Positions 41,589 to 63,714 of a stretch of 64,000 nt of DNA are shown here, one piece after another (positions within the stretch are counted from its first letter, which is position 1; the number at the start of each line of letters is the position of its first letter). The translations under genes and the position numbers were made by a program. Source of the stretch: Collinsella sp. An307 (GTDB lineage Bacteria > Actinomycetota > Coriobacteriia > Coriobacteriales > Coriobacteriaceae); the NCBI RefSeq assembly GCF_002161805.1, contig NZ_NFIP01000004.1, positions 124,001 to 188,000 on the forward strand, in the 5' to 3' direction. The notes under the pieces were generated by a model, which was given only the letters and a program-made list of their open reading frames with translations, made no database searches and was not told the DNA's origin.

Positions 41589-43079
41589 CTACCCCGCGAA
41601 GGCAATGGCCGCCTTGACGGCACGGCGCCAGCCCTTGATGCGGGCGATTCGATCGTTCTCGTGCATCTTGGCGTCCCAGCTCGCACGAGGCGCCACGCTG
41701 TGAGCGACGTCCTCGGGATAGAGACCGAGCGCAATGCCGGCGCACCATGCTGCACCGAGGCCGCTCATCTCGTCGTTACCCGCCGCCACGATGGGTACGC
41801 GCAGCATATCGGCCACAAACTGCATGAGGTAGGCGTCGCGCGTGGGGCCGCCGTCGACGCGAAGCTCGGCCAGACCCACACCGGAGTCGCGCTGCATGGC
41901 ATCGACCACATCGAAGATCTGAAACGCAATCGACTCCACTGTGGCGCGCACAAACTCCGCGCGCCCCGTGGTGCGCGTCATACCAAAGACCGCACCGCGC
42001 GTCTCGGCGTGCCAGTGCGGCGCGCCCAGCCCCGTAAACGCGGGCACCAGATACACGCGGCTTGCAGGATTAGCCGCAAAGCAGAGGTCGGTCGTCTCGG
42101 CCGGGTTCTCAATCATCTCCATATCATCGCGGAGCCACGTCTTAACCGCGCCCGCATAGTTGATGTTGCCCTCGAGCACATAGACGGTCTTGCCATGGCG
42201 ACGCCAGCCGAGCGAGCTCGAAAGGCCCGCGGTCGAGCGCGTAAGCTCGCCACCAACGTTCATCATCACGCTCGAGCCCGTACCCATGGTGGCCTTGGCC
42301 TGACCGGATGCATAGCAGCCCTGCCCAAAAAGCGCCGCATGGGAGTCGCCCATGACGCCGTGGATGGGAACCGGTGCGGGCAAAAAGCCGTCGAGGTCGG
42401 TCATGCCAAAGCACGCGTCGGAGTCGGTCACCTCGGGCAGCCACGCGGAGTCGATGCCAAAAAGACGGCAGCAGCGCGTGGACCACTTGAGCTTCTCGAT
42501 ATCAAAGAGCTGCGTGCGGCTCGCGTTGGAGTAATCGCAGCGGAATTCGGCCCCATGCGTGAGCGTCCAGACCACCCACGCGTCGATGGTGCCCAGATGC
42601 AGCGCACCCTCGCGCGCGAGCTCGCGCGCCGCCGGCACGTTCTCCAGAATCCACGTCATCTTGGCAGCGGGGTAATAGGGCGAAAGCGCCAGGCCCGTGC
42701 GCTCGCAGATGATGTCCGCCGCGCCCTCGCGCTGCGCGATGCGGTCGCAAACCTCCTGGGCGCGAGCGCACTGCCACACGATAGCGTCGCAGATGGGCTC
42801 GCCTGTGCGCGCGTCCCACGCCACGGTGGTCTCGCGCTGGTTGGAGATACCGATACCGGCAACGTCAGCAGGGTCAATCCCCTGTTCCTCCACAACGGCG
42901 CGCGCCACGGCGAGGACGTTCTTGGCAATCTCTGCCGGGTCATGGCTCACCCAGCCGTCCTCGTTCACCTTCTGCTCATGGCTGCGGTCGGCGCGATGCA
43001 CGAGGCGCCCCGCCTCGTCCACCAGCAGAGCCTTGGTGCCCTGCGTCGACTGATCGATGCCGATTATGTAACGGCCCAT
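41589..43079 (-). CDS. FGGY-family carbohydrate kinase (glycerol kinase-like)
   Basis: This 496-aa protein has two actin-like domains. The N-terminal half looks like glycerol kinase: GIDQSTQGTKA, ISNQRET, IVWQCAR. The C-terminal half has ATMGTGSSVMMNVG. The substrate loop reads GDSHAALFGQ, whereas true glycerol kinases have GDQQAALFGQ, so the glycerol-binding glutamine is replaced. With a split transketolase and an isomerase-like gene just upstream, a ketose such as apulose or xylulose is a plausible substrate. AAGGAGGG precedes the ATG. The kinase follows the transketolase genes after a hairpin. Confidence 0.8.
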   Translation of the reverse strand: MGRYIIGIDQSTQGTKALLVDEAGRLVHRADRSHEQKVNEDGWVSHDPAEIAKNVLAVARAVVEEQGIDPADVAGIGISNQRETTVAWDARTGEPICDAIVWQCARAQEVCDRIAQREGAADIICERTGLALSPYYPAAKMTWILENVPAARELAREGALHLGTIDAWVVWTLTHGAEFRCDYSNASRTQLFDIEKLKWSTRCCRLFGIDSAWLPEVTDSDACFGMTDLDGFLPAPVPIHGVMGDSHAALFGQGCYASGQAKATMGTGSSVMMNVGGELTRSTAGLSSSLGWRRHGKTVYVLEGNINYAGAVKTWLRDDMEMIENPAETTDLCFAANPASRVYLVPAFTGLGAPHWHAETRGAVFGMTRTTGRAEFVRATVESIAFQIFDVVDAMQRDSGVGLAELRVDGGPTRDAYLMQFVADMLRVPIVAAGNDEMSGLGAAWCAGIALGLYPEDVAHSVAPRASWDAKMHENDRIARIKGWRRAVKAAIAFAG

Positions 43080-60360: not shown

Positions 60361-62358
60361 ATGGAACAGCAGGTCCTCGGGGGAAGGTACCTTCTCAAGG
60401 ATAAGGTGGGCTCGGGCGGTATGGCGACCGTCTACCGCGCGCAGGATCAGGTTCTCGACCGCACTGTCGCGATCAAGATCATGCTGCCGCAGTATGCGGC
60501 CGACGCCACCTTTGCAGCCCGCTTTAAGCAGGAGGCGCAGGCGGCGGCCGGCCTCCAGAGCCCCTACATTGTGGGTGTCTACGACTGGGGCAAGGACGGC
60601 GACACCTATTACATTGTGATGGAGTTCCTCCGCGGCACCGACCTCAAGAGCGGCGTGCGCGCACACGGCGCCCTCGACCCCAAGAAGGTCGCCCAGATTG
60701 GCAGCCAGATCTGCGGCGCGCTCTCGGTCGCCCACAAGCACGAGATCATCCACCGCGATATCAAGCCGCAGAACATCATGGTGCTGCCCGACGGTAACAT
60801 CAAGGTGATGGACTTTGGTATCGCGCGCGCCAAGAACAGCCACCTCACGCAGGACAACAACGTGCTCGGCACCGCGCACTACGTCTCCCCCGAACAGACG
60901 CGCGGCCAGGAGCTCGGCCCCACCTCCGACATCTACTCGCTCGGCGTGGTCATGTATGAGTGCGCCACCGGACAGGTCCCCTTTGACGGAGACGACGCCA
61001 TCTCGGTGGCACTCAAGCAGGTCAACGAGCTGCCCGTGCCGCCCTCGCAGATTAACCCGGGCGTCGACGCCGACCTCGAGCGCATCATCCTGAAGTGCAT
61101 GGAGAAAGATCCCGCCATGCGCTTCCAGTCTGCCGACGAGCTCCGCCAGGTGCTGAACGCCTACCTGGCCGGCCGCACGGTCGACGTGCCCGAGCCCACC
61201 CGCGTCATCCCCGCCGCTCCGGCGACCGGCGCGACCGAGACCCGCGTCATGGGCGGCGAGACCCGTACCATGGTGCGTCCCGCAGCCGAGGCCCCGCGCG
61301 CAGGCGCCACGTCCGCCGTCCGCGGCGGCGCGGCGGGCGGCACCGGCTCCTATGAGCCCGAGGACCGCCCCAGCAAGGGCAAGATCGCGGCCATTGTGAT
61401 TGGCGTCATCGCAGCGCTCGGCGTCATCGCGGCGCTCGCCATGAGCTTCATGGGCGGCGGCGACACCGCGACCGTCCCGAGCGTGCTTGGTATGACGCTC
61501 GAGGAGGCGCGCGACACCCTCGAGGAAGAGGGCTTTGAGGTGGGCGAGATCACCGACGGCTTTAGCAACGAGTACGCCGAGGGCGAGGTTATGGGCCAGA
61601 CGCCTTCCGGCGGCCTGCGTGAGGCGCCGGGCACCAAGGTTGACATCACCGTATCGCGCGGCGAGGAGCCCGTTGAGAAAGTCCAGGTTCCCAACCTGGT
61701 AGGCAAGACCGCTGATGAGGCCAAGCAGGCGCTCGACGAGGCCGGCCTTGTGGGCATCCCCACCGAAGAGGCCAACGATGCCGACGAGGGCACGGTCTTT
61801 GAGCAGACCCAAGAGGCGGGCACCGAGGTCGACAAGGGTACGTCCATCTCCTACAAGGTCTCGACGGGCCCTGACACGGTCGATGTTCCCGACCTGCGCG
61901 GCTACAGCGAGTCCGCCGCCAAGCAGATGCTCGACGAGCTCAAGCTCTCCTACACCGTCACCTATGACTACGACGAGAGCATGAGCGCCGGCAACGTCAT
62001 CAGCTACTCCCCCGGCGGCAGCGTCGAGCCGGGCACCACCATCCAGCTTGTGGTTTCGCAGGGCGCGCTGCCCACCACCGGCTCTGTCCCCAACGTGACG
62101 GGCGCCACGCAGGGCAGTGCTGAGAGTGACATCAAGGCGGCCGGCTTTAACGTGTCGGTTCAGGTTGAGTCGAGCAGCACGGTCCCTGAGGGCCACGTCA
62201 TCAGCTACAGCCCGAGCGGCACACAGGAGTACGGCACCACGATTACCATCGTGGTCTCCGGCGGCCCCGGCGCCAGCGCCGGCACGGAGCCCGGCACCGG
62301 CGACCAGACCACTTCCGGCGGCGATTCCACCACCGACCAGGGCGAGACCACAAACTAA
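60361..62358 (+). CDS. pknB: PknB-type Ser/Thr kinase with four PASTA domains
   Basis: This 665-aa protein has a cytoplasmic kinase domain (about 1-275) with K39, HRDIKPQN (131-138, D133) and DFGIARAK. A juxtamembrane linker and one membrane segment (about 340-366) follow. Outside are four PASTA repeats starting near 369, 440, 507 and 573, each opening with a VP-LG/VPN-type motif. A Gly/Thr-rich tail ends the protein. PASTA domains sense muropeptides or lipid II. GAGGAG precedes the ATG. It closes the operon, 94 nt after the RodA-PBP gene. Confidence 0.96.
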   Translation: MEQQVLGGRYLLKDKVGSGGMATVYRAQDQVLDRTVAIKIMLPQYAADATFAARFKQEAQAAAGLQSPYIVGVYDWGKDGDTYYIVMEFLRGTDLKSGVRAHGALDPKKVAQIGSQICGALSVAHKHEIIHRDIKPQNIMVLPDGNIKVMDFGIARAKNSHLTQDNNVLGTAHYVSPEQTRGQELGPTSDIYSLGVVMYECATGQVPFDGDDAISVALKQVNELPVPPSQINPGVDADLERIILKCMEKDPAMRFQSADELRQVLNAYLAGRTVDVPEPTRVIPAAPATGATETRVMGGETRTMVRPAAEAPRAGATSAVRGGAAGGTGSYEPEDRPSKGKIAAIVIGVIAALGVIAALAMSFMGGGDTATVPSVLGMTLEEARDTLEEEGFEVGEITDGFSNEYAEGEVMGQTPSGGLREAPGTKVDITVSRGEEPVEKVQVPNLVGKTADEAKQALDEAGLVGIPTEEANDADEGTVFEQTQEAGTEVDKGTSISYKVSTGPDTVDVPDLRGYSESAAKQMLDELKLSYTVTYDYDESMSAGNVISYSPGGSVEPGTTIQLVVSQGALPTTGSVPNVTGATQGSAESDIKAAGFNVSVQVESSSTVPEGHVISYSPSGTQEYGTTITIVVSGGPGASAGTEPGTGDQTTSGGDSTTDQGETTN

Positions 62359-62408: not shown

Positions 62409-62434
62409 GGCCCGTCGGTATCCACCGGCGGGCC
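62409..62434 (+). terminator. Hairpin after pknB
   Basis: GGCCCGTCGG (62409-62418) pairs with CCGGCGGGCC (62425-62434), with one T/G pair and a short loop. It lies 50 nt past the pknB stop and just before the inverted array. The T tract is poor (TATT). Confidence 0.6.
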
Positions 62435-62440
62435 TATTCA

Positions 62441-62670
62441 TGTGCATCCAGCACGCCTCATGTGCAGCTGTCACAGTCCGTGTGCAATCGGCACGCGCTG
62501 CGTGCATCAAGCACACTTCATGTGCATCTAGCACGGAAGAAGCCCTATAAAGCGTGCTATCTGCACATGAAGTGTTACAAGTGCACACAGGGCGTGCCGA
62601 TTGCACACGAAGCGTGCCGCATGCACACGAGATGTGCCGATTGCATCCGTCACGCCACAATTGCATCGGC
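62441..62670. repeat. Inverted array of eleven 20-bp units with GTGC-N5-GCAC sites
   Basis: Five forward units start at 62441, 62461, 62481, 62501 and 62521. A 10-nt centre follows (62541-62550). Six inverted units start at 62551, 62571, 62591, 62611, 62631 and 62651. Every unit is exactly 20 bp. Forward units read TGTGC-N5-GCACG and reverse units CGTGC-N5-GCACA; each is itself a small palindrome. Seven units are perfect, and those at 62461, 62571, 62631 and 62651 are degenerate. The two halves can fold into a long hairpin. The last unit ends at 62670, one base before the AraC-type gene's stop codon. Confidence 0.9.
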
Positions 62671-63714
62671 TCAACCAAGCGCGCCTCGCCGGTGGCGCGC
62701 CCGATACTCAGCGGGCGCGAGCCCATATGCCTCGCGGAACTTCCGGTAGAAAAACGTCGTGTTCTCGTACCCCACCTCACGCGCGATGTCGTCCACCGTC
62801 CGATCGGAGTGACGCAAAAGACTCGTCGCATGTCCTAAACGCTGCGCCTGCACCGCCTGGATGTACGTCATACCGGTATGCCGCTTGAGCAGAGTTGTCA
62901 CGTAATTTGGGCTGATGGCAAAGCGCTCCGCAATACCTTCCTGCGTGCAGGTGCGATAGTGCTTCTCGATGTAGCGGATGATGGGAATGACCGAAACGCT
63001 CCCTCGATCCTCATCGCGGCGAAGGTAATCCTCCTCGTACACGCTGATAAGCTCAGCAAAGATGAGCTGCAAAAGATTGATGAGCACGCGTTCAGCGTTA
63101 CTGGTGGGGTCAAAGTACTCGCACATGAACTCTTGAAAGTAGCGGCGAATGCGGCGACTGTTATCTGAATGGAAGCGCACATACCGACGATGATCGGTCT
63201 GCTCGTTGAGGGCGTTCACGATAAAGTGTGCGAGCATGCTTTCATGGGTAAAGCTCCCCAGCAGGTTGTCGCGCAGAAACTTACGCGAAAGCACCAGGCT
63301 CATCATGATGTCGCTCTCGCCGAGCGACCCGATTGAATGGGGGCAGTTGGTGTCGAGCAGAAGTACCTGATTCTCGCGAAGTGTCATCGAGCGCCCGTTC
63401 ACCGTCTGAGGACAGCTGCCGGCATATACGTAGCTGATCTCAATGTGGGAATGGATGTGCTCGGGCACGGGATTGAAGCGCGAATTGCGCCTGAGAAGGA
63501 GCGGGTCCGCCATGGGCCGACGATCACCTTGTCCCAAATTGGCATCAAGATACCGTGGACTGCCATCGACGCCCTGGTCCATCTGGAGCACCCGACGACC
63601 ATCAATCGTCGTTAGCTCGCTTGGCCCGGCCCAGTCATATGTCTCGCCCTCGCGATAGCGCTGCTCGCTCGGAGAAAGTTCGAGAAGAAGTCGATTCAGC
63701 TGAGCGATTTCCAT
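62671..63714 (-). CDS. AraC-family transcriptional regulator
   Basis: This 347-aa protein has an N-terminal cupin-like sensor region (about 60-150, with HIHSHIEISYVYAG), a linker, and two helix-turn-helix motifs at the C-terminus. The second HTH carries the signature DIAREVGYENTTFFYRKFREAYG. GAGGGG precedes the ATG. It diverges from a PTS permease gene, which it probably controls in response to the transported sugar. Its 3' end directly abuts the 20-bp array. Confidence 0.9.
   Translation of the reverse strand: MEIAQLNRLLLELSPSEQRYREGETYDWAGPSELTTIDGRRVLQMDQGVDGSPRYLDANLGQGDRRPMADPLLLRRNSRFNPVPEHIHSHIEISYVYAGSCPQTVNGRSMTLRENQVLLLDTNCPHSIGSLGESDIMMSLVLSRKFLRDNLLGSFTHESMLAHFIVNALNEQTDHRRYVRFHSDNSRRIRRYFQEFMCEYFDPTSNAERVLINLLQLIFAELISVYEEDYLRRDEDRGSVSVIPIIRYIEKHYRTCTQEGIAERFAISPNYVTTLLKRHTGMTYIQAVQAQRLGHATSLLRHSDRTVDDIAREVGYENTTFFYRKFREAYGLAPAEYRARHRRGALG

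Follow-up and report, generated by a model that had tools for sequence, protein, structure and literature searches.

What is the inverted array of 20-bp units that lies between a pknB-type kinase gene and a convergent AraC-type gene in Collinsella sp. An307, and is it the unit or the long hairpin formed by its two arms that matters? The window that we analysed, a stretch of 64,000 nucleotides, holds the array at 62442-62666, with the following features.

60361..62358, plus strand: pknB-type Ser/Thr kinase with PASTA domains, the upstream neighbour, ending 83 bp before the array
62409..62434, plus strand: GC-rich hairpin GGCCCGTCGGTATCCACCGGCGGGCC, probable pknB terminator, 3' of pknB and separate from the array
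62442..62534, plus strand: forward arm of five 20-bp units (cores 62442-62454, 62462-62474, 62482-62494, 62502-62514 and 62522-62534)
62535..62553, no strand: array centre GGAAGAAGCCCTATAAAGC, 19 nt, with related sequence in orthologous arrays
62554..62666, minus strand: reverse arm of six 20-bp units (cores 62554-62566, 62574-62586, 62594-62606, 62614-62626, 62634-62646 and 62654-62666, the last degenerate)
62671..63714, minus strand: AraC-type regulator, the convergent neighbour, whose stop codon is separated from the last core by 4 bp

Direct reading of the sequence bore out the eleven units, five forward and six reverse, that the sequence-only reading had placed on an exact period: within each arm, every core starts exactly 20 bp after the preceding one. 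The step from the last forward core to the first reverse core is 32 bp, leaving 19 nt between cores; the 10-nt centre given earlier depends on where the unit edges are drawn. Similarly, four bases lie between the end of the last core (62666) and the AraC-type stop codon (62671-62673), and the previous figure of one base counts the flank. The number of perfect GTGC-N5-GCAC palindromes was correct, since the exact pattern occurs 10 times in the window, compared with 2.9 ± 1.5 in shuffled sequences, and seven of these occurrences are inside the array. Array-less sister species have a terminator at the same place as the hairpin at 62409..62434. Shortly past the AraC-type gene, there is a second gene of this type that is 54% identical to the first (source genome C12:189408-190460); the matched stretch contains an in-frame TGA in the source genome and in one relative.

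The array next to pknB is one of about nine. In the source genome, the pair of sites at 20 bp was found 17 times, against none for the reversed control, and nine loci with roughly 65 units were placed: pknB/araC, ygbA/usp, gene X/rubredoxin, argR-small ORF/PBP, ABC/asp23, Kef-type/histidine kinase, recF/dciA, aroQ/pnp, and a collapsed remnant after feoB. Three small contigs of this assembly (C7, C8 and C9, 1.2-2.2 kb) are masked as N. Among 299 genomes of the order, multiple diverse copies were present only in the source genome and two relatives of the same genus; one more genome carries four near-identical tandem copies and another a single pair. A three-unit search among nine members of the genus returned the same three carriers, and an arm-profile search of 61 family genomes gave convincing arms in these three only (best E about 1e-18 or lower), the remaining matches being marginal (E 0.003-0.01). 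In the genomes surveyed, the array family is confined to a small set of close relatives among the gut bacteria of the Collinsella group, and several arrays are orthologous between the source genome and its two close relatives. The pair pattern by itself had at least 112 matches in the genome collection and 20 in the viral collection; those listed are mostly chance pairs. Outside the Collinsella group, only a few longer in-phase runs appear among the matches listed, where L112 and L047 are near-identical tandem copies and L140 is iteron-like. No DNA similar to the arrays was found in the plasmid or phage collections, and the exact three-site pattern had no match in viral contigs. Contrary to what had been implied, the array is thus not unique and belongs to a dispersed family that resembles bacterial interspersed repeats in its behaviour. 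Nine loci in three species rule out an isolated slippage product, and the search across related genomes that had been suggested found the 20-bp geometry retained in the orthologues.

A unit profile built from 119 curated units reads GTGCA[TA][TC][CT]N[GT][CA]AC, with the linker RCYYYRT. GTGC is kept in 98-100% of these units and the next A in 96%, whereas the right half-site is looser (T in 30% at position 10, a base other than C in 16% at position 11). Strict palindromy, as initially proposed, must therefore be abandoned: the site, roughly GTGCA-N6-AC, lacks symmetry, and each arm has a polarity, with GTGCA outward. The comparison of 44 orthologous unit pairs revealed 7 substitutions in 308 core positions (2.3%) and 85 in 474 positions of the words and linkers (18%, p about 5e-13). 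Given that a concerted exchange of units would not spare the core alone, this low rate reflects constraint, and, judged by these counts, it is strong on GTGCA and on the final AC. In line with the first suggestion, specific recognition of each unit by a putative protein is the best reading of such a core.

The geometry is conserved as well. Every array in which both arms are visible has the order of forward units, centre and reverse units, and the centre measures 19 nt in nearly all related arrays, the recF array having 18 nt. The period is seldom broken: the exceptions are one 18-bp step in the ygbA/usp array of a relative and the collapsed feoB remnants. Alignment of orthologous arrays showed gaps of exactly 20 bp, that is, whole units, at pknB/araC, gene X, argR/PBP and Kef/histidine kinase (arrays A1, A3, A4 and A6); with indels of this size and a period that is not a multiple of three, the array is non-coding, as first described. 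The claim that spacing is kept while sequence drifts now extends over nine loci and three species. That all sites share one helix face holds approximately, because 20 bp correspond to 1.9 turns of B-DNA and each step of about −34 degrees drifts off that face.

Both strands of the array fold far better than shuffled sequences (z = −9.6 and −11.6), as inverted arms must. Accordingly, the arrays could be RNA-level elements, in which transcripts from either side fold into a very long imperfect hairpin that stops transcription, shields the mRNA 3' end or is a substrate for RNase III cleavage, and no dedicated DNA-binding protein takes part. Their placement at 3' ends, the GC-rich hairpins of sister species at three of these loci, and the strong short hairpin that the collapsed feoB remnant still forms agree with this reading. 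However, words and linkers permuted within arrays paired as well as the facing ones (p about 0.06-0.66 across all arrays, in a test of modest power), a result that is compatible with a hairpin held by the invariant core blocks. The rare core changes were not compensated in the facing unit, which indicates that the sequence itself is kept and not pairing alone. Moreover, pairing alone would require neither the exact sequence nor the exact 20-bp period that the arrays keep, and the sequence shows no U-run at the array, as a terminator would have. A search of Rfam 15 gave no match above the gathering score; the models that came up were microRNA hairpins below threshold, the best at 59 bits where 268 are needed. 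The long hairpin noted at the outset does fold on both strands, but since facing units pair no better than shuffled ones, it is probably a by-product and not a selected feature; the unit itself is more likely than pairing to be what is selected. Owing to the modest power of the permutation test, an RNA role keeps some weight, and we consider it possible, though unlikely.

All nine loci are intergenic and directly downstream of a stop codon; six lie between convergent genes, three between co-directional genes and none between divergent genes, these being raw counts over the nine loci. Sister species with a 64-69% identical AraC have no array at pknB/araC where this region is readable, nor at the other loci compared. 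At ygbA/usp, feoB and ABC/asp23, they hold strong GC-rich hairpins at the array position, with intergenic folds of −33 to −60 kcal/mol. Within the three-species clade, the feoB array is lost or collapsed in two species, the recF array is a one-unit remnant in one species and missing from another, and the asp23 array is lost in one, so that no single array is indispensable. An intrinsic terminator already flanks one side of several loci, pknB included. In the sister species G050, the rubredoxin gene is followed by another kind of long intergenic repeat cluster, of the TTGACGAYCTGCGATGCAACTT type and partly inverted (L303, after about position 1676).

These placements bear on another explanation, that the arrays are chromosome-architecture sites comparable to matS or parS arrays, read by a segregation or nucleoid-associated protein and intergenic only by chance. 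Dispersed, oriented and tightly spaced, they have the form of plasmid partition or iteron arrays, and in an unrelated contig of the viral collection, L140, a probable replication gene lies close to five GTGCAAAATGCAC units in phase at 20 bp. Under this explanation, strict placement after stop codons would be unexpected; in addition, individual loci have been lost and only three species carry arrays, which makes it very improbable. The L140 units occupy about 1776-1890 of the reverse strand, with alternating linkers, as an iteron-like array in an unrelated replicon.

The arrays also receive insertion sequences. In the source genome, 14 visible ends of an IS with ends GGGACYGCGGAC were paired into seven insertions by their matching 3-bp duplications, and three of the seven sit inside arrays, which cover roughly 1.4 kb of 2.2 Mb. 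By our estimate, the chance of this is near 1e-8 at random, and near 1e-5 if only an assumed 12% of intergenic DNA is open to insertion. The transposase, read from the copy of a relative, combines HTH_21 with an rve integrase core, as IS3-family transposases do, and in one relative this IS was found solely inside the aroQ/pnp array. Judging from these positions, IS3-family elements use the arrays as preferred landing sites. A second, different IS lies inside the aroQ/pnp array of the source genome. In the relative G233, the aroQ/pnp array runs on either side into a single IS type at contig ends (L283 and L284), and the unmatched 3-bp flanks imply either a rearrangement or two separate insertions. 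Several contig breaks of the source genome (starts or ends of C1, C3, C12 and C15) are caused by a second IS, whose ends are AGGCTTATAGGACAAAATGTGTGTCC.

Mobility of the arrays themselves was considered too. They could be selfish or neutral interspersed repeats that resemble MITEs or REPINs, have no host function, and were dispersed a single time, in the common ancestor of the three species, by a putative transposase reading the 20-bp sites. Their sudden appearance in a three-species clade, their absence from sister species, and their dispersed, always extragenic and often lost copies would fit this origin, as would the enrichment of units ending in GTCAC or GTAAC at the outer arm ends (8/18 vs 13/69, p 0.03), where terminal repeats might be found. 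Nevertheless, neither a target-site duplication nor a clean empty site was seen at the arrays, the array-less orthologues being too diverged or deletions, and ancestral presence followed by loss explains every comparable position, so that recent transposition is not called for. The constraint on the core also continues after the spread. As for the genes that could drive such repeats, a RAYT-like Y1_Tnp gene (L257:1527-2474; source genome C10, about 42026-42973) is flanked by GGGGACGG/CCGTCCCC and is also present in relatives, and RAYT-like genes occur in array-less species too. A REPIN driven by the resident RAYT is ruled out, because this gene is flanked by the other repeats (GGGGACGG). Taken together, these observations make a purely selfish or neutral family unlikely. 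The genus seems to own a REP family with TTTGGGGACGGG, which in sister species is found at the recF and histidine-kinase loci, where the source genome has arrays.

The arrays share several traits with REP/BIME: short palindromic units clustered extragenically at gene ends and dispersed over the chromosome, a copy number that varies between strains, and targeting by IS3-family insertion sequences. In enterobacteria, IS1397 and ISKpn1, both of the IS3 family, target the palindromic units of BIME (PMC1525189). In contrast to BIME units, which alternate (PMC2817692), the units studied here share one orientation within an arm, the two arms are inverted relative to each other, and the 20-bp period is rigid. 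Their consensus lacks a GTAG or CGTC foot (CGTC is present in a minority of units only), they have no link to the resident RAYT, and there are about nine loci and roughly 65 units, whereas REP/BIME usually exceed 100 copies per genome. With plasmid iterons and partition-site arrays they share tandem, oriented, putatively protein-binding sites of about 20 bp at constant spacing; they differ in occupying nine chromosomal gene ends, in their inverted arms and in having no adjacent replication or partition genes. The neighbours are pknB/araC, ygbA/usp, recF/dciA, feoB and the like, with no replication initiator gene. Like CRISPR, they are regular intergenic repeats, but with a 20-bp period, degenerate units, two inverted arms and no unique spacers. 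Intrinsic terminators are also inverted repeats at 3' ends, and three of the array positions are taken by GC-rich hairpins in sister species; the arrays, in contrast, are about 200 bp long, keep their core sequence and lack a U-run, and several loci have a normal terminator besides. The sequence-only reading had set the array apart from CRISPR, REP/BIME and iterons, and features of each are indeed missing, although the family is BIME-like in behaviour. The arrays work like REP/BIME without being members by sequence, orientation pattern or RAYT linkage, and the family appears to be a BIME-like interspersed repeat of a new type.

The reading that we prefer, with a probability of about 42%, is that the arrays are a lineage-specific BIME-like family of 3'-end repeats, whose oriented units are bound by a putative protein and which may serve as 3'-boundary elements. 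Each 20-bp unit would be an oriented recognition site (core GTGCA-N6-AC) for a sequence-specific DNA-binding protein, several copies of which would bind side by side, perhaps cooperatively, on two arms facing each other across the fixed 19-nt centre. The occupied array would most likely end or separate transcription between convergent genes or between segments of operons, in place of the GC-rich hairpins that sister species use there. Arms grow and shrink by whole units, arrays disappear by deletion, and IS3-family transposases prefer them as targets. No binding protein for the arrays was identified or could be linked to them by synteny. A narrower and improbable version holds that one clade-specific protein reads the polar 20-bp sites of the facing arms at gene 3' ends as a dedicated boundary and blocks RNA polymerase, perhaps also replication forks, from either side. 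Such a boundary would be a bacterial counterpart in form to the terminator-site arrays of eukaryotic rDNA.

We found no published description of this repeat in the literature searched. The family brings to bacterial interspersed repeats an architecture in which two arms face each other across a fixed centre and the units keep a rigid 20-bp phase, in a lineage for which such repeats were not found described in that literature. Its strict core makes the search for the protein that would read it direct, and the IS3-family insertions are a second, independent case of transposons aiming for intergenic repeats. At known gene pairs, the three close species differ in whether an array is present, collapsed or lost, and these differences provide natural experiments on the role of repeats at gene 3' ends.
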